DNA of 11,017 nt from Geminicoccaceae bacterium (GTDB taxonomy: Bacteria > Pseudomonadota > Alphaproteobacteria > Geminicoccales > Geminicoccaceae): NCBI GenBank assembly GCA_020446285.1, contig JAGREZ010000301.1, positions 1 to 11,017 on the forward strand, in the 5' to 3' direction. Positions 1 to 11,017 of the stretch are shown here, piece after piece. The stretch's first letter is position 1. Every line of letters starts with the position of its first letter. Position numbers and translations under genes: made by a program. The notes beneath the pieces are model-generated. The model was given only the letters and a program-made list of their open reading frames with translations. It ran no database searches and was not told the origin of the DNA.

Positions 1-318
1 CAATATAAAAATTATTTGGTATTTAATAGATGAAAAAAAATGATATTGAAAATCCATTTTTAAATAAATAAGAAAATATAAAAAATAAAATAAATGAAAA
101 ACTATAACCAAAATAAATAAAAAAAGAAACAAATATGGCGTCTTTTTGCAAAACATTGCTACGTATATTGCAAAAACAAATGACGCTATCATTCCATAAG
201 CAAATCGTGCCTCTGAATATGAAAATATTGCCAATATACCAATAAATATGATAACCCAAGATAGAGCATAAAATAATGAATAGAAGAATGCATTATTAAT
301 ATTATTATTAATAATCAT
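1..318 (-). CDS. Multi-pass membrane protein, putative immunity protein for the Rhs-Tlde1 toxin (3' end outside window)
   Basis: This reading frame starts at ATG 318-316 and stays open for 106 codons to the window edge. GGTGA (329-325) lies six bases before the ATG, a near-ideal ribosome binding site. The start overlaps the last 11 bases of the Rhs gene, so the two are probably translationally coupled. The protein begins MIINNNINNAFFYSLF. It shows about three hydrophobic helices (residues roughly 10-34, 36-55 and 58-85) separated by short polar turns such as SYSEARF and CKKTP, which suits an inner-membrane protein. Base composition is extremely AT-rich. Position directly behind a polymorphic toxin is where cognate immunity genes sit, and Tlde1 toxins act on periplasmic peptidoglycan, so a membrane immunity protein is plausible. 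I recognise no named family; the immunity role is inference from context. Confidence 0.72.
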   Translation of the reverse strand, partial: MIINNNINNAFFYSLFYALSWVIIFIGILAIFSYSEARFAYGMIASFVFAIYVAMFCKKTPYLFLFLFILVIVFHLFYFLYFLIYLKMDFQYHFFSSIKYQIIFIL

Positions 319-754
319 TGCTTTTCACCACAAATGGAACTACTCTATCCGGATCTGATTGAATATCATTGAGAACTCTATTCGTTATGTCATTGCCCAA
401 TATGCCACCACCGATATCAATACATCCAGCCGAACCTAAAAGAGAGCCACCGTGCAGAAAAAATCCACTTCGTCCAAACGGATCAGTACCAAGAAGAGGA
501 TTTATTTTAATGCGCCAATCCCCCCAATCTCCAAGTATATTGCGCATCAAGTCACCCAAGAATGAAGGATTAGAAAGATCATTTGCATTCAATTGATAGT
601 TTCCTGGTGGGATGGGGCCGGTATTTGAATAGCTAGCGCATGACGCATTCCCCATACAACTACCCTTTCCTGAAGTAGCAGGAACTTGATATGGTGAATC
701 GGTCGAATTCTCTGGATCAACAGTAAGTGTTCCATTTTCCAAATCATATTCCAT
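308..754 (-). other. AT-rich toxin tip of the Rhs gene (Tlde1/DUF2778 domain)
   Basis: This segment encodes residues 426-573, just after the VDREGL end of the RHS core. Composition falls from GC-rich core DNA (beyond about 780) to AT-rich DNA here, and to very AT-rich DNA in the following membrane gene. That step is the usual mark of an exchanged toxin/immunity cassette on a conserved Rhs scaffold. His526 is the codon at 454-452 and Cys536 the codon at 424-422. Confidence 0.8.
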
Positions 755-2029
755 TGAAGTAAGCCCCTCGCGATCCACAAAGCTCAACGGATTGGCGTTG
801 GCATACCCATACAGGTTCGCCCCGCCCGCGAGCCCGATGGGATCGGCCTGGACGTATCGCCCGAGGGCCGGATCATAGTCGCGCCACCAGTTCTGGTACA
901 GGCCGGTTTCGATGTCGGCATATTGGCCCGGCAGGCGGAAGTTCTGGGTGAGGTTTCCCGTCAGTGAGGCGAGTTCGCCGAAGGGGGTGGTGACGGCGTC
1001 CCAGACCACCGTACCCGTGTCGTCGGTGAGCTTCTGCGGCGTGCCGAGATGGTCGCTGTGGATCCAGTGCACGCGCGGGGCGGCCGTGTCGGCGTCGGTG
1101 ATCAAGGCCAGCGGCATGTCGCCGAGCCAGATCGTTTCGGACGTGACCGTGCCCGCGGTGTTCGCCTCGGCGATCAGCTCGCCGCCAGGGCCGTGGATGT
1201 AGTGTGCGCCCGGCAATCCCGGCACTGTTGAAAATTTCGCCACGCGGAGACCGGTGAGGTCGTGCAGGTAGGTGACATCCGTCGAACCGTCGCGGGTGAT
1301 CGAGGACAACCGTCCGGCATGATCGTAGCCATAGGCGAATTGTGTCCCGTCGAGACGGGTGTCGCTTGTGATGTTGCCGGCAGCGTCATGGCCGAGCGTG
1401 CGCGTGAACGTGCCGTCGGTAACTGACAAAAAACGGTTGGAACCGGCGGCGACGGTCGAGGCCTCAACGCGGGTCGACAGCCCGTCATCGATGATCCGGC
1501 TCGTGCGGTTCGAGCCCGCATCCCAGGCATAGTCGATATCGCCATAGGCACCAGTGGCGTCCGTCAGCCGCGACAGGGCGTCATAGGCAAAGGTCTGGCT
1601 GCGGGAGGCATCGAGCGCGTCGGCGAGGGAGGTGATCCGCGATGCCGCGTCATGGCCCAGAGCCAGATCCTGGATGTCGAGAGTGGCATTGCCGGTGTCG
1701 ATCCCGGTGAGACGGCCGTCGGTATCGTAGGCGAGAGCCACATCCAGCCCGTTGCCGAGCTGCATCGAGCTCACCGGGCCGAACGGCTCGTAGGCGATGT
1801 TCGAGGCGATGGCCGTCGTCACGCCCGAGGCTGCCGTCGTCACCGAGGTCACCCGGCCGAGCGCGTCGCGAACGTAAGTGACCACCCGCCCGGAAGGATG
1901 GGTGATGGAGATGAGATTGTCGGCGAGATCGTAGGTGAAGGCGGTGACGTAGCTCTTGTTGTTGATCACCTTGCTGCGCGAGACGATGTTGCCGCGGGCG
2001 TCATAGGTGAACGAGGTCGCCTTTGTCAT
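308..2029 (-). CDS. Rhs repeat protein with C-terminal Tlde1/DUF2778 L,D-transpeptidase-like toxin domain, 5'-truncated
   Basis: The 573-residue frame opens directly in YD repeats (FTYDARGN at 7-14, then about ten copies to residue 260) and has no N-terminal PAAR or targeting region. Full Rhs proteins usually exceed 1000 residues, so the 5' part is missing at the 2007-2030 junction. The RHS core spans about 320-423 and includes HSDHLGTPQKL, GLYQNWWRDYDP, YVQADPIGL and NPLSFVDREGL. From M426 the sequence resembles Tlde1/DUF2778: GPIPPGNYQL (471-480), FGRSGFFLHGGS (518-529) and SAGCIDIG (533-540), with candidate catalytic His526 and Cys536. In the family this fold attacks or edits peptidoglycan stem peptides in the target periplasm, usually after type VI delivery. 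DNA for the toxin end is much more AT-rich than the core. The ATG at 2029 is preceded by AGGGA, so expression of the shortened protein cannot be excluded. Confidence 0.9.
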   Translation of the reverse strand: MTKATSFTYDARGNIVSRSKVINNKSYVTAFTYDLADNLISITHPSGRVVTYVRDALGRVTSVTTAASGVTTAIASNIAYEPFGPVSSMQLGNGLDVALAYDTDGRLTGIDTGNATLDIQDLALGHDAASRITSLADALDASRSQTFAYDALSRLTDATGAYGDIDYAWDAGSNRTSRIIDDGLSTRVEASTVAAGSNRFLSVTDGTFTRTLGHDAAGNITSDTRLDGTQFAYGYDHAGRLSSITRDGSTDVTYLHDLTGLRVAKFSTVPGLPGAHYIHGPGGELIAEANTAGTVTSETIWLGDMPLALITDADTAAPRVHWIHSDHLGTPQKLTDDTGTVVWDAVTTPFGELASLTGNLTQNFRLPGQYADIETGLYQNWWRDYDPALGRYVQADPIGLAGGANLYGYANANPLSFVDREGLTSMEYDLENGTLTVDPENSTDSPYQVPATSGKGSCMGNASCASYSNTGPIPPGNYQLNANDLSNPSFLGDLMRNILGDWGDWRIKINPLLGTDPFGRSGFFLHGGSLLGSAGCIDIGGGILGNDITNRVLNDIQSDPDRVVPFVVKSNDY

Positions 2030-2040
2030 CGGCGGTCCCT
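2007..2040. other. Rearrangement junction joining truncated Rhs and truncated binding-protein genes
   Basis: Up to about 2006-2020 the minus strand encodes a YD repeat (TSFTYDARGN). From about 2013 the plus strand encodes binding-protein sequence (EVAFVIGGPWAIG). Both divergent genes lose their 5' ends here. No insertion sequence, inverted repeat or integrase gene is visible at the join. Confidence 0.75.
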
Positions 2041-2510
2041 GGGCGATCGGCCGCTATGACCGCAATCCGGATCTTCACTATGCGGTTGCACCGGTTCCCT
2101 ATTTTGCTGGCGGCAAGCCGGTGACGCCGACCGGCTCTTGGGCGATCTCGATCAACCCGCATTCGCAGAAGATCGATGCAGCACGCAAGTTTGCTGAATA
2201 TGTCTCCCTGAATCCGGAGGGGGCGGTTCTGTCGGTATCGAAGAACCCGCTACCGCCAGTTAATGCCGATGCTTTCAAGGTCTATGCCGAACACATGTCG
2301 GCAATGACCGACAAGATTGGCCCAGCGATCGACATCATCACCTACGAGCTTGCGAATACCGCAGTGGGCCGGCCCCGCTCGCGCGGCTATGTGACCTTTG
2401 AAACCATCATGCACCGCGCGTTCAGCGATATCCGCAATGGTTCGGACCCGGCCGAGGTCCTCAACGGCGCCGAGAAGCAGCTGCAGCGTGCGCTTGGTCG
2501 CCTCAAATAG
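2007..2510 (+). pseudogene. C-terminal fragment of a carbohydrate ABC transporter solute-binding protein
   Basis: The frame reads FVIGGPWAIGRYDRN, then PVTPTGSWAISINPHS and a helical C-terminus ending RALGRLK before two TAG codons (2508-2513). This is typical of the last 160 or so residues of family 1 extracellular sugar-binding proteins, which are normally about 400-430 residues long with a signal peptide. Here the signal peptide and the whole first lobe are absent: upstream of about 2010 the DNA belongs to the opposite-strand Rhs gene. A GTG at 2007 is formally in frame but lies in Rhs sequence and has no convincing ribosome binding site. The intact protein would have bound sugar in the periplasm and passed it to the two permeases encoded just downstream. 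This fragment should not be functional. Confidence 0.85.
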
Positions 2511-2522
2511 TAGACGCGATAT

Positions 2523-2549
2523 CCGGGAGTCCGGTTGCCGGGCTCCCGG
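2523..2549 (+). promoter_or_regulatory. Stem-loop between binding-protein and permease genes
   Basis: Bases 2523-2534 pair with 2538-2549 as a 12-bp GC-rich stem with one G-T pair and a TTG loop. It lies ten bases after the second TAG of the binding-protein fragment. No T-run follows (AATTTCCT), so a full intrinsic terminator is unlikely. Hairpins here in sugar ABC operons commonly protect the binding-protein mRNA and lower permease expression relative to it; that role is inferred. Confidence 0.7.
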
Positions 2550-2573
2550 AATTTCCTGACCTGGAACGCTGCT

Positions 2574-3428
2574 ATGTCACGAATGAAGCGCCTCATGATT
2601 GCCCTCGGCTTCCTGTTACCAGCAATTGTCTGTGTGGTTCTCTTGCGGATCTGGCCTGCAGGGTTGGCGCTACACGATTCACTCATTGCGCCGGGTGATG
2701 ACAGCTATTCGCTTGAAAATTTCAACTATGTTTTCACAGATCCCGATTTCCTGAACAGTCTCAAGGTTACCCTGGTCTATTCGCTGATCGTCAATCCGCT
2801 CCAGATCGGTATCGCACTGGCTCTGGCACTTCTGATGAATACGCTGGTCCCGCTTATCGGGTTCTGGCGTACGCTGGTCCTCCTGCCGGTGGCCATTCCG
2901 CAAAGCGTTTCTGCGGTCGTCTGGGGTGTCGCGCTTCGTCCCGACGGACTTATCAATTCGGTGCTGGTGGTGCTGGGGCTGGAGCCGCAGCGCTTCCTTA
3001 CATCCGCCGATCAGGCGCTGGGGTCTATCATCCTCATCGTGAGCTGGATCGGCGTCGGCTACTGGATGACATTCATTCTTGCCGGGCTGCAGGATATTCC
3101 GAAATCGCTATACGAAGCCGTCACCATCGACGGCGCGAATGGCTGGCAGCGATTCCGCTTCGTGACGCTGCCGCAGCTTCACCGTCCGCTGACCTTCGTG
3201 CTCGTGGCCAATACCGTCGCGAATTTCCTCGTCTTTGCACCGGTGCAGATCCTCACCGCAGGGGGACCGGAAGGGTCGACGAACCTGATCATGAACGAAA
3301 TCTATACCAAGGCTTTCGTCATCAGCGATCCGGAAAGTGCGGCTGCGGCAACTGTCGTGCTGGTTGCGGCAGTGCTGCTGGTGGTGGTCATACAGTTCCG
3401 GCTCATGAGCCGGGCGGAGGACCGGTGA
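2574..3428 (+). CDS. Carbohydrate ABC transporter permease (MalF/UgpA type)
   Basis: This 284-residue inner-membrane protein is the first of the two permease subunits of a sugar importer. I chose ATG 2574 (MSRMKRLMIALGF) because GGAA lies seven bases upstream and because an in-frame TTG at 2535 sits in the loop of the preceding hairpin. The first helix follows the short basic N-terminus. The cytoplasmic coupling (EAA) loop is at about 178-206, with SLYEAVTIDGANGWQRF, and LTAGGPEGSTN follows at 227-237, a common signature of this family. Length is normal for the shorter members, which carry six helices. Its TGA stop shares a base with an ATG at 3428 (TGATG), the expected start of the next permease. 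The reading frame looks intact, but the partner binding protein is truncated and no ATPase gene is nearby. Confidence 0.9.
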   Translation: MSRMKRLMIALGFLLPAIVCVVLLRIWPAGLALHDSLIAPGDDSYSLENFNYVFTDPDFLNSLKVTLVYSLIVNPLQIGIALALALLMNTLVPLIGFWRTLVLLPVAIPQSVSAVVWGVALRPDGLINSVLVVLGLEPQRFLTSADQALGSIILIVSWIGVGYWMTFILAGLQDIPKSLYEAVTIDGANGWQRFRFVTLPQLHRPLTFVLVANTVANFLVFAPVQILTAGGPEGSTNLIMNEIYTKAFVISDPESAAAATVVLVAAVLLVVVIQFRLMSRAEDR

Positions 3429-3460
3429 TGGAACGGCGCCGCAAAATCCTTTGATATGTC

Positions 3461-4258
3461 ATGATCGTCCTCGTCGCATTGCTTTTCTTTGCGCCGCTCT
3501 GGTGGGTCACCATCAGCGCGTTGCGTCCGTCGGATGAAATTTTCCGTTATATCTCACCGCTCAGCCTGCGCTGTTTCTGGCCCGAGGGCTGGACCCCGGC
3601 CAATGTCGTCTCGCTCTGGGAGGGCAGCTTCCGGCGCGCGATCCTGAATTCGATCTTCGTTTCTGTGGTGACGGTCGTCGTTGGGCTGGCGATCTGCTCG
3701 ATGGCGGCCTTTGCGCTCGCCGTCATCGATTTTCCGTTCCGCAATACCATCTTCATGGTGATGGTGATCAGTTTTCTCATCCCCTTCGATGCCATCGCCG
3801 TTCCGCTTTTCGGGATCATGCGCGAACTAAAGCTGCAAAACAGCTATACGGGGCTGATCCTTCCTGGGATAGGCAACGGGCTCGCCGTCTTTCTGCTACG
3901 CCAGTTCTTTCTTGGCATCCCCAAGGAACTGCGCGAGGCAGGATTTGTCGATGGCATGAACTGGTTCGGGATCTATTGGCGGATCTACCTGCCGCTTTCC
4001 GGCCCGGCGATCATCAGCGCTGCCCTGATCCTGTTCATTTTTCAGTGGCAGGCCTATCTCTGGCCGCTTCTCATCGCGCCGGGTCCCGATTACAAGGTGG
4101 CCGCCGTGGCGATCGCGCAGTTTTCGGGGCAATATGATGTCGATTTCGGCCTGATCTTTGCGGCGGCGCTTTTCATATCCATCATACCGATGGTGATCCT
4201 GACACTGTTGCAGCGATTCTATTCGACCTCCGTCGCGAGTTCGGGAAGCAAGGAATAA
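3461..4258 (+). CDS. Carbohydrate ABC transporter permease (MalG/UgpE type) with early in-frame stop in its expected N-terminus
   Basis: The 265-residue open part starts at ATG 3461 with the first membrane helix (MIVLVALLFFAPLWW). It continues with five more hydrophobic segments, the EAA loop REAGFVDGMNWFGIYWRIYLP (about 158-178) and the family signature FQWQAYLWPLL (194-204). It ends at TAA 4256-4258. The natural start is almost certainly ATG 3428, which overlaps the previous stop, but that frame runs only MERRRKIL before TGA at 3452-3454 and then continues in the same frame as YVMIVLV. No ribosome binding site precedes ATG 3461. The protein may be made weakly by reinitiation, since all six helices remain, or the gene may be a recent pseudogene. 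No msmX/ugpC-type ATPase gene follows. Confidence 0.85.
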   Translation: MIVLVALLFFAPLWWVTISALRPSDEIFRYISPLSLRCFWPEGWTPANVVSLWEGSFRRAILNSIFVSVVTVVVGLAICSMAAFALAVIDFPFRNTIFMVMVISFLIPFDAIAVPLFGIMRELKLQNSYTGLILPGIGNGLAVFLLRQFFLGIPKELREAGFVDGMNWFGIYWRIYLPLSGPAIISAALILFIFQWQAYLWPLLIAPGPDYKVAAVAIAQFSGQYDVDFGLIFAAALFISIIPMVILTLLQRFYSTSVASSGSKE

Positions 4259-4408: not shown

Positions 4409-4454
4409 ATCAAGCGGTGGATTATCGGGTGTGAATGGATATATGATTGGGTAT
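4393..4454 (+). repeat. Four phased direct repeats of TCGGGTAT ahead of the Fic start codon
   Basis: Copies are TCGGGTAT at 4393, TCGGGTAT at 4403, TCGGGTGT at 4425 and TTGGGTAT at 4447. Spacings of 10, 22 and 22 bases are close to one and two helical turns, so all copies face roughly the same side of the DNA. The last copy covers the ATG at 4453. An inverted relative (TGACCCGA) lies at 4330-4337. This looks like an operator array; the winged helix of the Fic protein itself is a possible ligand, by inference. Confidence 0.5.
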
Positions 4455-5502
4455 GCCGTTCAGAAACCCGACCATCATCACACCACGCATGCTCTCCCTG
4501 ATCGCCGAGATCGACGAGTTCAAGGGGGCTTGGCGGGCACTCGGCACACTCGCTCCGGATCGTCTGTCAGCGTTGCGCCGGGTCGCCACGATCGAGAGCA
4601 TCGGCTCCTCGACGCGTATCGAGGGCAGCCGTCTTTCTGATCAGGACGTCCAAAGGCTGTTGTCGAACCTCGACATCCAGTACTTCGACAGCCGGGACGA
4701 GCAGGAAGTCGCCGGCTATGCAGATGTCATGGAGACGGTCTTTTCCTCCTGGCGCGAAATCACGGTCACCGAAAACCATATCCGTCAGCTTCATCGTGAC
4801 CTTCTGCGTTATAGCGCGAAAGACGAGCGCCATCGCGGCAGCTACAAGACGACACCCAACAGCGTTGCGGCCTTCGATCCGAACGGAGTGCAGATCGGTA
4901 TCGTGTTCGAGACGGCGACACCGTTCGATACACCGCGTCTGATGTCCGAGTTGGTCGAGTGGTATCGCATAGAGACCGAGATGGGAGAACTTCACCCGCT
5001 GCTGGTGATTGGCGTGTTCATCGTCGTCTTTCTCGAGATCCATCCGTTTCAGGACGGCAACGGGCGATTGAGTCGGATACTGACGACTTTGCTGCTGCTA
5101 CGGGCAGGCTACGCCTACGTGCCTTACAGTTCACTGGAAAGCATCATCGAGCAGAGCAAGGAAAGCTACTATCTCGCTTTGCGACAGACGCAGGGCACGA
5201 TCCGAACTAAGGCACCGGACTGGACACCGTGGCTCGAATTCTTCCTGCGGGCGCTGCAGGGTCAGATGGCACGTCTCCGTCGGCGCGTCGAACAGGAAAA
5301 GCTGATGACCGGATCGCTGCCGGAACTTTCGGCACGGCTGGTCGAACTGACTCGCGAGCACGGCCATCTGACACTGGCCGAAGCAGGCGCACTGACCGGT
5401 GCTAACCGCAACACGCTCAAGCAACACTTCCGTTCACTGGTCGAAAACGGCCATCTGCAGCTCAATGGCAAGGGCCGCGGGGCATGGTATGCGATTCCGT
5501 GA
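4453..5502 (+). CDS. Fic-family protein (class II, self-inhibited) with C-terminal winged helix
   Basis: Fic enzymes usually transfer AMP from ATP to a hydroxyl side chain of a target protein. This 349-residue protein (from ATG 4453, MPFRNPTIITPRML) has the complete catalytic motif HPFQDGNGRLSR at about 197-208, with catalytic His197. The N-terminal inhibitory helix motif SSTRIEG at 52-58 has its glutamate at 57, so it belongs to the class whose inhibitor is in the same chain. The substrate flap (HRGSYKTTPNSVAAF) precedes the core. Residues about 289-349 form a winged helix (LTLAEAGALTGANRNTLKQH). TGA at 4444-4446 closes the frame upstream, so the start is TTG 4447 or ATG 4453. ATG gives the usual family N-terminus; no strong ribosome binding site is visible. 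It converges with the defence operon, 108 bases away. Target unknown. Confidence 0.93.
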   Translation: MPFRNPTIITPRMLSLIAEIDEFKGAWRALGTLAPDRLSALRRVATIESIGSSTRIEGSRLSDQDVQRLLSNLDIQYFDSRDEQEVAGYADVMETVFSSWREITVTENHIRQLHRDLLRYSAKDERHRGSYKTTPNSVAAFDPNGVQIGIVFETATPFDTPRLMSELVEWYRIETEMGELHPLLVIGVFIVVFLEIHPFQDGNGRLSRILTTLLLLRAGYAYVPYSSLESIIEQSKESYYLALRQTQGTIRTKAPDWTPWLEFFLRALQGQMARLRRRVEQEKLMTGSLPELSARLVELTREHGHLTLAEAGALTGANRNTLKQHFRSLVENGHLQLNGKGRGAWYAIP

Positions 5503-5610: not shown

Positions 5611-7425
5611 TTAAACATGCACCGATTGCCGCAGCTCCTGGATTGAACTCTGCGGAACCAGGAATTCAGCAGATCGCACCTTCGCCCACGTGTCCGCACG
5701 CTTCGCCACCTCCGAAATCTGCCGGCCCGGGGCGATCCTGTTGAACTCGGCGTTCACGACGACTGCCCAGTCCCGGAGCAGGTCCCGCAGACCCGCAGAA
5801 ATCCCTTGCCGCATCCAGATCTGCTCGAGGTCGAGCCGATCACCAAGTCGATCGGCGACTACCGATACGACGTAGGTCGCTATGTTGACCCATCCCTGGC
5901 GAAACACCTCCTTTGCTTCCTTCGTCTTGATCATGCTCTCGATTGCCTTGAACAGAATGACCTTGGCGATCATCGTCCGATACCAGCGGGCATCGAGCGG
6001 GCTGGGCACAATGGTCGGATCGTCATCGAGAGCAGCCATGAAGGCCGCGAAGTTCTTCTCGCCAGCCATGGCGACCTGGTTCGGCTTGCAGCGCCATGCT
6101 TCGTGGTATTTGGCGATGTCATTCTTGGTCAGCTTGCGTTTCGGCGGGATCATCTCCTTCAGGTTTCGCCTCTTCGCCGGTGTAGTACCTTCTCTCAGCA
6201 GCATGACATTGTAGGCACCAGCTGCACGCTCGTAGAACCATCTCGTCGCGCCGTCGGGGCACCAGGTTTCATTCGCGAGTTTCTCGAGTTCCCGATGGAA
6301 CGGGCGGTTTGCCGACAGGTCGGACATCTTCACCGTGTTCTGACTGTTCGCATAGCGGGAGACCTTGCTGATCAGTCTCTCTCTGACTTCATCCTCGGAA
6401 CCCTTGAGGATGATGATCTTTGCCGGGACCATGACATGGCTGAGATCGATGGTGCGATCGTCGCGGGATGAGAAGTAGATGGTCGAGGTCGTCTGGCCGC
6501 CGTTCACGATCTGCAGACCCTTCAGGAAGGACAGGCCCAGATTCCCGTCCTCGGTCCGCTCGAAGGCTGCAGCGTCGCAGACAAGCACGAGGCCATTGTT
6601 GAAAGCCAGAAAGTGCTCCGGTTCCTTTCGCAGTGTTTCGACGATGCCCTTGTTGACCGCGCGCTTGTTCCCCAGAAAGGTGCGGATGTTGGCTTCGAGC
6701 AGCATGGTCCCATAGCGCAGATAGAGATCCCGGATGAGCTGCCCGGGAATGACCGCAAGGGCGTACTCGTAGTCAGCATCAGGGTCCGGGACGTGAACGC
6801 AGGGGAGCGCCCGTCCGATCGACTGGACAAAACTGATCGCCAGTTCGTCTCGCGGCTTGCCCTCGGTGTGGCGGAACAGCCTCTCCATGTCCATGGCCTC
6901 AACGGCCACCATCTTCTGGTGAACCTCCTTGTTCGAGAACCGTTTCGTCCTGGTCTTGCCATCGGTGATCACGAAAACGCGAAGTCGGTCGATATCACCC
7001 CAGCGCGAACGAATGGTTGCTACCAGGTTCCTGACCGGATGAGTCGGATCGATCCTTGCGTCGAGCTTGCCGCTGGCCGCACGAAAGAGAAAGCGAACCC
7101 CCTCGCTTGCAGTTGCCGTGGCATCCGAGTCCCTGAGATCGTTCAGCTCCTCGAGCCCGAAATAGTGGGTCACAAAGAGGTCAAGAGCCGTTTCATCAGA
7201 GCTGAGCGCATAGCCGGTAATGCGGAGTTTCGCGTTGCCGACCTTTCCGCTCCAGTGGCAAACGGTTGGGGCCTCGCAGATCCCGGTTTCTGCGACATGC
7301 TCCATGACCATTTCCGCAAACACGAGCTCATCCGAAGGAAAGGGACCTTCGCCAGCCTCTACCCGCTCGGCGATGATGGTCTGCAGGTCTGAACGAAAGT
7401 TGCGGTGAAATTCTTCGAGGCTCAT
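5611..7425 (-). CDS. AIPR family protein (abortive infection phage resistance), last gene of an Mza-type defence operon
   Basis: The 604-residue protein carries the conserved AIPR (PF10592) features: FLAFNNGLVLVCD at 272-284, LKGLQIVNGGQTTSTIYFS at 301-319, and ANSQNTVKMSDLSANRPFH at about 359-377, followed by RWFYER at 395-400. The N-terminal part includes ITGYALSSDETALDLFVTHY (69-88), which resembles the strand region of nuclease-like folds in this family; that reading is tentative. AIPR proteins were first linked to abortive phage infection and recur in Z1/DUF4420 defence operons, but their biochemical activity is not settled here. ATG 7425 lies one base after the TGA of the upstream nuclease gene, so translation is likely coupled. 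The stop is TAA at 5613-5611. In the Mza naming this would be the last component (mzaE, from remembered gene order). Confidence 0.9.
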   Translation of the reverse strand: MSLEEFHRNFRSDLQTIIAERVEAGEGPFPSDELVFAEMVMEHVAETGICEAPTVCHWSGKVGNAKLRITGYALSSDETALDLFVTHYFGLEELNDLRDSDATATASEGVRFLFRAASGKLDARIDPTHPVRNLVATIRSRWGDIDRLRVFVITDGKTRTKRFSNKEVHQKMVAVEAMDMERLFRHTEGKPRDELAISFVQSIGRALPCVHVPDPDADYEYALAVIPGQLIRDLYLRYGTMLLEANIRTFLGNKRAVNKGIVETLRKEPEHFLAFNNGLVLVCDAAAFERTEDGNLGLSFLKGLQIVNGGQTTSTIYFSSRDDRTIDLSHVMVPAKIIILKGSEDEVRERLISKVSRYANSQNTVKMSDLSANRPFHRELEKLANETWCPDGATRWFYERAAGAYNVMLLREGTTPAKRRNLKEMIPPKRKLTKNDIAKYHEAWRCKPNQVAMAGEKNFAAFMAALDDDPTIVPSPLDARWYRTMIAKVILFKAIESMIKTKEAKEVFRQGWVNIATYVVSVVADRLGDRLDLEQIWMRQGISAGLRDLLRDWAVVVNAEFNRIAPGRQISEVAKRADTWAKVRSAEFLVPQSSIQELRQSVHV

Positions 7426-7426
7426 G

Positions 7427-8431
7427 TCAATCCAGTCCCAATTCGACGATCAAGTCCGGAAGTCCGATCGAGGGAACTTCGAGCGCGTCAAGGTCGAGTA
7501 CATAGGCAGCTGAGCGGATGGCAGCCGGAAGTGCAGCGCGCGTGAGACGCGGCATGCCACCTTCCACGCGGAGTACCCTCGCGTCCTTCAATGTCAATGT
7601 GCGCCCGTAGAGTGCTGCATGCTCGTCGAGATATCCCATCACCATGAGAAGCGCTTCGAATCCGCGTTGCACTCCGGCCGCTCCGAACCTCTCCCGGAGT
7701 TTCGTCACAAGACCGACGAGCGAGATCCCATCGGGGTTTTCCTCGAAGCGGAAGGCGCACAGGAAGATGGGCGCCCGGTCACCATCCAGCTGCTCGATGC
7801 TGTTGATCCGCGCGAGGAAGCTGCCGGTCCGGTCCGTGCTCTTCACCTCTGCAGCACCCCTCCGAATGTGGAAATCTTGCGCCGCCCGCAACGGTCCCTG
7901 CCAGCAGTCGAGAGCACCCGCCCCAAGGGAAGTGTCCGCCAGCAATCCGAGCATCCAGAGCTCGCCGAGCAGACCGATCTGCGCGTCGGACGAAAGAGGG
8001 CGGTGCGTTCGAGCCATGAAAGCCTGCCACTCCCTGACCCGCTCAAGGAAGACCTTCATAACGTCGCGGCCCGCGCTGTTGGCTGCAGTTTCCAGAGTTC
8101 TCAAGACATCCACGACCATGATGGCAAAGATGTCGGGTGAACCCTCTCGCCGCCTGGCGAGAGCAATCGCCGTCTTGCCTGCGAATATGGCCTGATCCTT
8201 GATGCAGGAGACGTCGAAGCCCTTGCCTTCAGGAAGCCTTGCCGGATTCATCGGCCACGACCCCGGAAAGGAGACGATCAGCGCTTCCCGTCCGAACGGA
8301 AAGTGACAACCCGCCTCGATCGAGACGGCGCCCATATCGGTGAGATATACAAATCGCCAATCTTCCGCCGCTTCCTGTCGCGCGAGTGCTCGCCAGACAC
8401 AAGCAATCCCCTCTTCAGTCCACCCAGTCAT
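7427..8431 (-). CDS. PD-(D/E)XK motif protein (DUF4420), putative nuclease of an Mza-type defence operon
   Basis: I place the start at ATG 8431 (MTGWTEEGIACVWRAL, 334 residues), which overlaps the end of the helicase gene by 17 bases. A G-rich run lies 5-12 bases upstream and could act as a ribosome binding site. A longer frame from 8539 would add 36 low-complexity residues encoded wholly inside the helicase gene. The family (PF14390) is a PD-(D/E)XK nuclease fold; the expected residues are visible as LLGELWMLGLL (Glu157), AAQDFHI (Asp186) and GAAEVKSTD (Glu195, Lys197). All core residues are present, so DNA cleavage is plausible, with the neighbouring Z1 helicase probably supplying loading or translocation. 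It ends one base before the AIPR start. By remembered gene order it would be mzaD. Confidence 0.88.
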   Translation of the reverse strand: MTGWTEEGIACVWRALARQEAAEDWRFVYLTDMGAVSIEAGCHFPFGREALIVSFPGSWPMNPARLPEGKGFDVSCIKDQAIFAGKTAIALARRREGSPDIFAIMVVDVLRTLETAANSAGRDVMKVFLERVREWQAFMARTHRPLSSDAQIGLLGELWMLGLLADTSLGAGALDCWQGPLRAAQDFHIRRGAAEVKSTDRTGSFLARINSIEQLDGDRAPIFLCAFRFEENPDGISLVGLVTKLRERFGAAGVQRGFEALLMVMGYLDEHAALYGRTLTLKDARVLRVEGGMPRLTRAALPAAIRSAAYVLDLDALEVPSIGLPDLIVELGLD

Positions 8432-11017
8432 TGAGCCCCCCCCACAGCACGCTGTTGGCGATGTATCTGGAGTTGGAGACTCTTCTCTCGGAAGTACTTG
8501 ACGGAAAACTGATTGCCCAGGCGACGACGGGATCGGCATCCTTCAGTTCATCGACATCCGCGCCCTCGGGGTCGAGCAGATAGAGCAGGAGCAGGCCGCG
8601 TTCCCGACGAGCCGGAATGCCCGCTTCGGTGACTCCTTCTCCGAGTACATAGCGGATCTGTGGACCTCTCGGTTCGGATGGCAGCCCCTTGCCTTCGTTT
8701 CGATCCGCGTCGTTACGCCAGGTCTTCTGGCTGAGATCGAGCGCCGCCTTCCATTCCGCCTCGGTCAGATCGATGGCCTGATCGCGAGGTGAGATCAGGG
8801 TCTTGATCGAGTATCGATCCGAATGTTCGGTCGTGCGCTTGCGCTGGAGCATGTTGACCGAACGACCGCCGGCATTGCGGTGCCGGTCGTCCGGACCACT
8901 GTCCTTTCCGATCAGCGCGACGGTCCAGCCCGTGAGCTCGCGATCCTTGTTCATCTCCTCGATGAAGTCCGCAATCAGCGGACTCATTATCCTGAAGCTG
9001 GCGGAGTGGGTCCGGTAGTCCCGCAGAAACGAGATGACGTTCAGGGCTGGCACATTCCGCCAGAGGTGCCCGTTCCACTTCTGACCTTGCGGAACGAAAT
9101 GCTGATCGTTCAAATCCATCGACGGACCGAGCGCGCTGATGAACCGATCCGTAGCATTGAAGTTTGCAGCGATGTCTTCCTTGCGATTGGAAAACACGAT
9201 GGTCTGCAGAAGGTCGCCCGAATAGGTCAGCTGCATCGCGCGAGCGTTTCTCATCTTGGCTCGAGAGGTTACCGTCAGCACGGAATGCGATTTCACCCGT
9301 AGACCGAACTGTTTTGGTGTGGCACCGGCCGCTACCATGTTGTCAAACTCCTGGCGGAGCTCTTCTGCGGCATCGGCGATATGGCCAAACCACTCCACCA
9401 TTTCCTGCGATGTGTAGAGACGGCAGGCATCGAGGTAGCCGTCGCGGTAGCCGAACCATCGCCCCATCTGCATGAGCGTGTCGTACATGCGTGCGGTTCG
9501 AAGAAAATAGCTCGTGCAGAGCCCCTCGAGCGTCAGACCACGCGCCAGCTTGTCGCCGCCGATGGCAATCACCTTGAGGCCGGTGCCGTCATTTTCGGCG
9601 TAGTCGAGAGCATCCTTGGCAGTGCCGTTGATCTCGCGAACGCGAATGTCGGACAGGACGTCGGGGAGGACGGCACGAATGTCTGCCCACGAAAAGTCCT
9701 CGAGAGTCTCGCCCTCGATGAGGGCGGAACGGATGCGCAGCATCCCTGGCAGAAAGGTCTCCTGGTACTCCGTGCGCATGGACGCCTCGATGGCTTCGAG
9801 TTCGATGCCGCGGAGGAAACGGCCCTTCAGATCCCGCACATATTCCGCGACCTGATTGACGACGGCGTTCTGTACCGAGGTGAAGCGGGTAACGTGGATG
9901 AGCATCGAGCAGTGTTTGCTGCCCTGTCCGCGCAACTTCCTGATGGCGCAGGCGTAGACAAAGGAGCGGATCGCCTCCGCGAGCGAGTCGGGCACACAAT
10001 CCTTCCCCTGCCATCGCGGCCGGCAGCCGTTCTTGTGTCGTGGTGGCATCCACGGCTGGAACTCGTCGTCCGACAACGGGCGCACCAGAGGCAGGTCTTC
10101 GGGCGTGCTTGAAGCTGATCCGAAGACGCGACCTGGCCCGACATAGTTCGATGGCGCCGCAAGGCTGGTGATGAAAGCTGCGGGGAAGAGGTCCGGTCCG
10201 TGCTCCTGAGTCTCCCCGCGGTCATGAATGAAGATGTTCGCAAAGGGTGTCGCCGTGTAGCCTACATATGCCTTCCGCGAGAAATGGTGGAGGATCGACC
10301 GGATCAATCTGTTGATTGTCCTGGGTTCATGTTCGAGATCCGGGTTGCCGGACTCGTCCACGACATCTTCACCGGTATCGACGGATCCGTGATCGGACTC
10401 GTCGTCGATCACCAGCAGCGGCAGGTTGGTGACGAGTTTGCGACCTGTTTCGGGGTCGACGTGATTGGCTACACGGTTGCGGATCCAGTGCAGCAGACGG
10501 TCCAGTACCGTCTTGTTCTTCTTGACTACGAACAACCACGGTCGCTGTTCCGGGCTGATGTTCATCTTCGCCGCAACAGCCGTATTGAAATCGCCCTTGT
10601 CGCTCCGGTTTGTTGCAGCGTTGGGACGGACCGACATGTCCTTGTCGATCAGCCCCACCCCTACTGCCGGCAGCTCGTCAGCATCCGCGATGGTGGCAAA
10701 ACCGAGGAACCCCTCGTCCAGGCGAATCTGGGTCTGTGCTCTCAGGTTGTTATGCAGGCCGGCCAGCACGATGATGATCTTGTAACCGGCGTCGGCAGCC
10801 TTGCATATCAGCCCGGTATAGTTACCTGTCTTCCCCGACTGAACGTGGCCCACGACCAGTCCGCGACGATCCCATGCGCCTTCCCGGGTCGGATCCTCGA
10901 GCTGTGAAAGGACTTCGTCGGTGGCGACGTCGAGGGCGTCGAGGGCCGTCCAGGGGATGCGCGCTTCCATGTACTCCGAGTAGCGCTGCCAATAGGTCCA
11001 GCCCTTCTTCCTTTCTG
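8415..11017 (-). CDS. Z1-domain superfamily 2 helicase/ATPase (5' end outside window), Mza-type defence
   Basis: Visible motifs, numbered from the internal ATG at 10970, are Walker A GHVQSGKT (41-48), Walker B LLVIDDESDH (185-194), motif III YTATPFANIFI (238-248), GGDKLARGLTLEGL (471-484) and the arginine-finger region QMGRWFGYRDGY (501-512). These define the Z1 (PF10593) helicase class found in restriction and antiphage operons. The frame stays open upstream of ATG 10970 and still reads like the family (KKGWTYWQRYSEY), so the true start lies beyond base 11017 and the 10970 start is too short. The C-terminus (WGGLNDWVD) overlaps the next gene, and eight consecutive G on the coding strand (8443-8436) encode part of it. 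Likely job: ATP-driven DNA remodelling or translocation feeding the nuclease partner. By remembered order it would be mzaC. Confidence 0.92.
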   Translation of the reverse strand, partial: ERKKGWTYWQRYSEYMEARIPWTALDALDVATDEVLSQLEDPTREGAWDRRGLVVGHVQSGKTGNYTGLICKAADAGYKIIIVLAGLHNNLRAQTQIRLDEGFLGFATIADADELPAVGVGLIDKDMSVRPNAATNRSDKGDFNTAVAAKMNISPEQRPWLFVVKKNKTVLDRLLHWIRNRVANHVDPETGRKLVTNLPLLVIDDESDHGSVDTGEDVVDESGNPDLEHEPRTINRLIRSILHHFSRKAYVGYTATPFANIFIHDRGETQEHGPDLFPAAFITSLAAPSNYVGPGRVFGSASSTPEDLPLVRPLSDDEFQPWMPPRHKNGCRPRWQGKDCVPDSLAEAIRSFVYACAIRKLRGQGSKHCSMLIHVTRFTSVQNAVVNQVAEYVRDLKGRFLRGIELEAIEASMRTEYQETFLPGMLRIRSALIEGETLEDFSWADIRAVLPDVLSDIRVREINGTAKDALDYAENDGTGLKVIAIGGDKLARGLTLEGLCTSYFLRTARMYDTLMQMGRWFGYRDGYLDACRLYTSQEMVEWFGHIADAAEELRQEFDNMVAAGATPKQFGLRVKSHSVLTVTSRAKMRNARAMQLTYSGDLLQTIVFSNRKEDIAANFNATDRFISALGPSMDLNDQHFVPQGQKWNGHLWRNVPALNVISFLRDYRTHSASFRIMSPLIADFIEEMNKDRELTGWTVALIGKDSGPDDRHRNAGGRSVNMLQRKRTTEHSDRYSIKTLISPRDQAIDLTEAEWKAALDLSQKTWRNDADRNEGKGLPSEPRGPQIRYVLGEGVTEAGIPARRERGLLLLYLLDPEGADVDELKDADPVVAWAISFPSSTSERRVSNSRYIANSVLWGGLNDWVD
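8436..8443 (-). repeat. G8 homopolymer at the helicase/nuclease gene overlap
   Basis: Eight C on the plus strand (eight G on the coding strand) lie five bases before the nuclease ATG and in the last codons of the helicase (TGG GGG GGG CTC). With seven G the helicase frame would read GGC TCA ATG ACT and continue into the nuclease frame. Confidence 0.8.

Follow-up and report, generated by a model that had tools for sequence, protein, structure and literature searches.

Several described systems bear a likeness to the locus analysed here. Tlde1a and Tldi1a, encoded in Salmonella SPI-6, form a T6SS effector-immunity pair (PMC9638812; PMC10434147). According to the available excerpts of these papers, Tlde1 is marked by an L,D-transpeptidase-type H...(S/T)HGC motif and Tldi1a carries a Sec signal (PMC9638812), and the Tldi1a gene is located upstream of the toxin gene (PMC10434147). 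RHS toxins of the Tox-LD-peptidase group occur with Imm16 and Imm57, and the accessible part of the relevant paper describes a subset of the immunity proteins as secreted or transmembrane (PMC3482391). A Pgp2-type L,D-transpeptidase of Salmonella, presented as a candidate effector in the excerpt of that study, adjoins an immunity candidate with a signal peptide (PMC10469887). Small membrane-embedded immunity proteins are also on record for other antibacterial toxins; as far as the source excerpts go, these have two helices and are directed against different toxins.

The window, by which is meant the whole stretch of DNA analysed (11,017 bases), is an entire contig, with base 1 at the contig end, from a genome (G000) of 4.2 Mb in 619 contigs that is 87.46% complete. 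The features at issue are as follows.

1..318, minus strand: candidate immunity gene, 106 codons, 3' end lost at the contig end
308..318, minus strand: overlap of toxin stop and immunity start, 11 bp, read from the sequence
325..329, minus strand: GGTGA, partial Shine-Dalgarno-like, six bases ahead of the ATG at 318
308..769, minus strand: Rhs C-terminal toxin tip, GC3 0.29, with His and S-A-G-C replacing the Tlde1a motif
413-685, minus strand: PF10908 Tlde1 domain within the tip, by Pfam profile
770..2029, minus strand: Rhs YD repeats and RHS core, GC3 0.83, 5' part of the gene off the contig

It is highly probable that positions 1-318 hold the first part of an immunity gene cognate to the Tlde1 toxin that forms the tip of the Rhs protein. 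The locus resembles that of Tlde1a and Tldi1a in that the toxin belongs to the same Pfam family and finds its best PDB fold match there, and in that the presumed immunity gene adjoins the toxin gene. By description, the immunity proteins differ: whereas Tldi1a has a Sec signal and an upstream gene, the window protein is a predicted four-helix membrane protein encoded downstream, with an overlap. The toxins differ as well, SHGC in Tlde1a corresponding to S-A-G-C in the window toxin, which is an Rhs tip. In the Pgp2-type case, too, an effector of the L,D-transpeptidase type lies next to a candidate immunity gene, but the immunity candidate is exported by a signal peptide, whereas the window family is membrane-embedded. 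The Tox-LD-peptidase systems share with the window an RHS-linked L,D-peptidase toxin and a linked immunity gene, and the accessible part of PMC3482391 names no immunity family of the window protein's build. The Imm57 profile (PF15596) gave no match over its cut-off in any of nine genomes searched, a set that did not include the genome of locus L020; its weak matches (E 0.78 and 1.1) fall at positions past the ends of the toxin contigs, hence on other contigs. Pfam scans of the family members gave no match to an Imm family. Because the accessible part of PMC3482391 already mentions L,D-peptidase Rhs toxins with membrane or secreted immunity proteins, the window family is regarded as new and unnamed but of a known kind.

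The Rhs protein and its toxin tip

The Rhs reading frame (308-2029, minus strand) contains six RHS_repeat matches, an RHS core and a Tlde1 domain at residues 449-539. This order, in which PF10908 follows the RHS core, is that of polymorphic Rhs toxins, in which a variable C-terminal toxin domain stands behind the core. The tip is a Tlde1 domain of L,D-transpeptidase fold. Its match to Tlde1_dom (PF10908) has an E value of 2.4e-9 and a score of 38.1 bits, against a Pfam gathering cut-off of 30.1, and is the sole match to this family in the source genome. A model of residues 421-573, built from 11 aligned rows (mean pLDDT 86, pTM 0.82), has Salmonella Tlde1a as its best PDB match (7uo8; E 8.7e-5, TM-score 0.63 by query); further proteins of the L,D-transpeptidase fold come next. 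The preliminary description of this DNA had spoken of a Tlde1-type effector, and both the profile score and the fold match bear this out. At the sequence level, a profile of the toxin reaches Tlde1a weakly (E 0.021), with W, R, R, F, H, S, G and C aligned.

Relatives of the toxin were collected for comparison. A scan of a species-genome collection with the toxin tip gave nine loci (L014-L022), and profile searches of 398 and 295 genomes added two distinct close loci (L046 and L055) and seven distant ones. The close loci number 12 (the window, L014-L022, L046 and L055) and the distant Tlde1 loci eight (L005 and L047-L053). Duplicates were left uncounted (L054, a duplicate of L019; L056 and L058, duplicates of L021), and L003 was left out, its Rhs match stopping at residue 425-431, before the tip. 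Within the 153-residue tip the motif residues are H106, S113, G115 and C116, with Ala in place of the second His, and the His-to-Cys spacing is 10, as in Tlde1a (H121-C131). The second His of SHGC is absent in all 12 close loci and all eight further loci, the motif reading S-A-G-C, S-K-G-C or, in L015, T-S-G-C across the toxin clade; it is present in some viral relatives (L029 and L030). Toxins lacking this residue are possibly a functional sub-group of Tlde1.

Third-position GC content falls from the Rhs core (0.83) to the tip (0.29) and to the candidate immunity gene at 1-318 (0.18), and the AT-rich tip and immunity gene are most likely a swapped-in module behind a GC-rich Rhs core. Searches with the toxin tip gave no match in phage records and one weak match among plasmids, on a Photobacterium plasmid.

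Towards its 5' end the Rhs frame meets, at about 2007-2029, a truncated solute-binding-protein gene on the plus strand (2007-2510, PF01547) that keeps about its last 167 residues, so that both genes are cut at the same spot. This junction (window 2000-2060) is either a recombination border or an assembly chimera or error, and the frame start at 2029 is probably not the true start of the gene. A second Rhs core fragment lies elsewhere in the same genome (contig C247, 16684-16923; L009), 79% identical over residues 345-424; its tip is different, with no Tlde1 match there.

The overlapping gene and the predicted topology of its product

The candidate immunity gene starts with an ATG at 318..316, and the TAA stop of the Rhs frame lies at 310..308, both on the minus strand. 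The start is fixed by an in-frame TGA three codons upstream, identified by eye. From the ATG the frame runs to base 1 without a stop. Openness alone is modest evidence, because simulated first-order Markov sequences of the same composition stayed open over 106 codons in 925 of 200,000 runs; the frame is taken as a gene on account of its homology to proteins of relatives. These are 112-137 aa long when complete, and positions 1-318 are about the first four-fifths of the gene. Its start within the toxin's last codons suggests translational coupling between the toxin stop and the immunity start. The start codon, the GGTGA six bases upstream, the 11-base overlap and the 106 open codons, all reported in the preliminary description, are there in the sequence, as is the shadow frame at 23-259 (TTG start, 78 aa).

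The proposal that the frame is a chance neighbour, either an unrelated membrane gene or a spurious AT-rich frame, draws on this same fairly frequent openness of AT-rich sequence. It is extremely improbable, however, given that significant homologues occupy the same position in other lineages and that the linkage to the toxin holds in 11 of the 12 close loci, both set out below.

Three hydrophobic helices had been attributed to the protein. Three segments do stand in the window, but a full-length relative models as four, and only three are visible because the gene is cut at the contig edge. The model of the complete L014 protein, made from eight aligned rows and of moderate quality (mean pLDDT 78, pTM 0.63), places helices at residues 6-27, 34-53, 59-77 and 93-128. 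The window copy keeps helices 1-3 and the start of the fourth; the greater part of that last helix, like the basic tail, is missing. When the L014 helix borders were mapped over all eight rows, the end of the last helix being set manually at 112, the counts of K+R against D+E were 8 to 2 at the N-terminal end, 2 to 9 in loop 1-2, 11 to 3 in loop 2-3, 7 to 11 in loop 3-4 and 23 to 1 at the C-terminal end. By the positive-inside rule, these charges put the two ends on the cytoplasmic side of the membrane, with loops 1-2 and 3-4 on its periplasmic side. The family is accordingly predicted, at the level of this model, to have four helices, both ends inside and two periplasmic loops. The loop after helix 1, on the periplasmic side, bears S-[DE]-x-R in the nearest relatives, and several members have YHD in loop 3-4. 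A PDB fold search with the immunity model gave no match at E<=0.001 (best 0.83).

Relatives of the membrane protein and their linkage to the toxin

Kinship of the membrane proteins was assessed against 1000 shuffles that keep the local hydrophobicity of the protein. A profile of the L014, L015 and L016 proteins gave the window protein 16.7 bits, a score reached by none of the 1000 shuffles (maximum 6.8), and gave L022 30.4 bits, again reached by none. In phmmer searches from the window protein among 11 sequences, L014 was found at E 3.7e-6, L015 at 0.0017 and L016 at 0.032. For L021, 14 of 1000 shuffles scored as high with this first profile and one did so with a five-member profile; in phmmer searches among 11 sequences, its partner is L022 (E 7.1e-6). 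The matches of L017 and L020 are weak, their scores being reached by 11 and 229 of 1000 shuffles, respectively, and by 140 and 227 with the five-member profile. By these sequence comparisons, the window, L014, L015, L016 and L022 form one demonstrable family, which L021 joins through L022. A motif after helix 1, FSxS-[DE]-x-R-x-AY, occurs in the window, L014 and L015 and partly in L016; it is absent in L021 and L022. The carriers of the family are Marinobacterium (L014), an unclassified bacterium (L015), a Deltaproteobacteria MAG (L016), Moritella (L021) and a Desulfobacterales MAG (L022), so that the relatives span Gammaproteobacteria and MAGs labelled Deltaproteobacteria and Desulfobacterales.

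A single family for all toxin neighbours was considered and rejected, L019, L046, L055 and seven distant ones not scoring above shuffles against the window group. L019, L046 and L055 are related among themselves, with a signal-like start followed by A-E-[VI]-[AI]-DK. The distant neighbours, among which L048 pairs with L053 and L047 with L052, make up several sequence groups that are not detectably related to that of the window.

That the family might be an unnamed one had been suggested earlier, and the profile searches indeed match no named family. Pfam and NCBIfam gave no above-cut-off match for the family (single-member Pfam hits, down to E 0.029, are below cut-offs), PADLOC, applied to the window protein, gave no family match, a plasmid search gave none for the window or L014 membrane protein, and the titles and openings of abstracts listed by literature searches contained no description of such a family. 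L014 also hit a MutG permease (E 0.0022), at 17.5 bits where the cut-off is 117.2; this hit was put down to helix composition. When the family profile was searched independently of the toxin, 398 genomes yielded just the window sequence and 295 genomes just that of L021, both already part of the profile; no homologue lacking the toxin, which the preliminary description had named as a finding against its proposal, was seen in these searches.

A small membrane protein of 112-137 aa (106 in the truncated window copy) is encoded directly downstream of the toxin, on the same strand, in 11 of the 12 close loci, and in these 11 its start lies between -13 and +6 bp from the toxin stop (counted for L021 from the second ATG, the first giving -23). 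The one exception is L018. By the Kyte-Doolittle scale, nine of the 12 have at least three strongly hydrophobic segments and ten at least two; L046, with one such segment, was counted as having a membrane-protein neighbour through its clear kinship to L055. In three 50-kb stretches of E. coli K-12 taken as a control, 0 of 138 genes encode a protein of 100-140 aa with at least three segments and 1 of 138 one with at least two, a size range that does not cover the longer neighbours of the distant loci. At seven of the eight distant loci the neighbour is a protein of 117-184 aa with 1-3 hydrophobic segments, starting at -53 to +139 bp; L050 breaks the rule with a neighbour of 143 aa that has no hydrophobic segment. 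On one contig, two toxin/membrane-protein pairs (L048 and L053) lie about 2 kb apart. The linkage is in part a matter of ascertainment, because all relatives were found through the toxin, and linkage to a toxin is not neutralisation of it.

The surroundings of the pairs vary. An RHS core precedes the tip in L014 (under the Pfam cut-off) and L015, as in the window; a PAAR gene lies directly upstream of the toxin in L019, and a phage-lysozyme-type gene and another small gene lie upstream in L020. Several pairs stand alone, with toxin frames of 143-228 aa that have no hydrophobic segment. These last, together with a size, helix number and basic C-terminal end that recall holins, would suit a helper rather than an antidote, that is, a holin-like or anchoring partner that brings the Tlde1 enzyme to the periplasm as in a phage lysis cassette. 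Such a role is nonetheless improbable: PHROG gave no match below E 0.05 in eight members (best 0.057), and the setting is that of effectors rather than of a lysis cassette, two members standing behind RHS-fused tips (L014 and L015) and the L019-type pair behind a PAAR gene. Moreover, six of 18 viral Tlde1-like loci inspected (four of them distinct, one with 280 bp downstream) had no such neighbour.

Two further loci bear on the reading of the membrane protein as an antidote. An unbroken member of the window's family (L022, 3917-4467) adjoins a toxin remnant of 66 residues, a pairing expected if the antidote outlives the toxin. In Massilia glaciei (L018, 410-934), a one-helix protein with HEAT-like repeats (below the Pfam cut-off) stands beside a toxin of the same clade and is perhaps another kind of antidote. 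Taken with the exported immunity protein of Salmonella and the membrane protein described here, this suggests several unrelated antidotes as partners of Tlde1-type toxins.

Proposed function and genomic surroundings

The preliminary description had placed membrane-bound immunity opposite a toxin that acts on peptidoglycan, and the Tlde1 tip and the homologues in the same position elsewhere support this pairing, from which we infer protection. In the proposed mechanism, the immunity protein would be translated from its start inside the last codons of the toxin gene, with which it may be coupled, and would form a four-helix bundle within the inner membrane, its two ends lying in the cytoplasm. 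Two short loops, one after helix 1 and the other between helices 3 and 4, would be presented to the periplasm and may bind the toxin and block it at its site of action, the outer face of that membrane, so that the producer and its sisters would stay alive. The immunity families of peptidoglycan-attacking Rhs tips would then include an unnamed one of membrane proteins. The way in which a protein that exposes so little surface can stop an enzyme in the periplasm is open to direct testing.

The same property suits immunity by another route, in which the protein shields or changes the toxin's substrate or the cell envelope and does not touch the toxin: these proteins lie mostly within the membrane with short outward loops, and many sequence-unrelated membrane proteins adjoin this toxin group, as if membrane location mattered. 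Against this, no enzyme-family match rose above cut-off, and fast divergence with toxin linkage is usual for specific toxin binders; the probability of this other route is judged to be low. A broader proposal is that H...S-x-G-C Tlde1 toxins generally have membrane-embedded immunity proteins as partners, drawn from several families unrelated in sequence. Unlike an exported soluble inhibitor, which would plug the active site, these proteins perhaps catch the toxin, or guard its substrate, on the outer side of the inner membrane. We hold this generalization to be doubtful; if true, the four-helix family of the window would be one of several such families.

Concerning the route of delivery, profiles of VipA, for the T6SS sheath, and of PAAR gave no match in the 87.46%-complete source genome, which at that completeness does not exclude a T6SS, and T6SS delivery is not supported for this genome.

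The remainder of the window carries other genes of note. Homologues of MzaE, MzaD and MzaC of the MZA anti-phage system lie side by side at 5611-10970 on the minus strand, with PADLOC E values of 2.4e-159, 3.5e-53 and 0, respectively; all three proteins score below the NCBIfam equivalog cut-offs, and further MZA genes, if any, would sit past the right contig end. A SoFic-like Fic-domain protein (PADLOC E 2.1e-47) is encoded at 4447-5502 on the plus strand, flanked on one side by the MZA genes and on the other by two transporter-permease-like frames at 2535-4258, recognized by eye.
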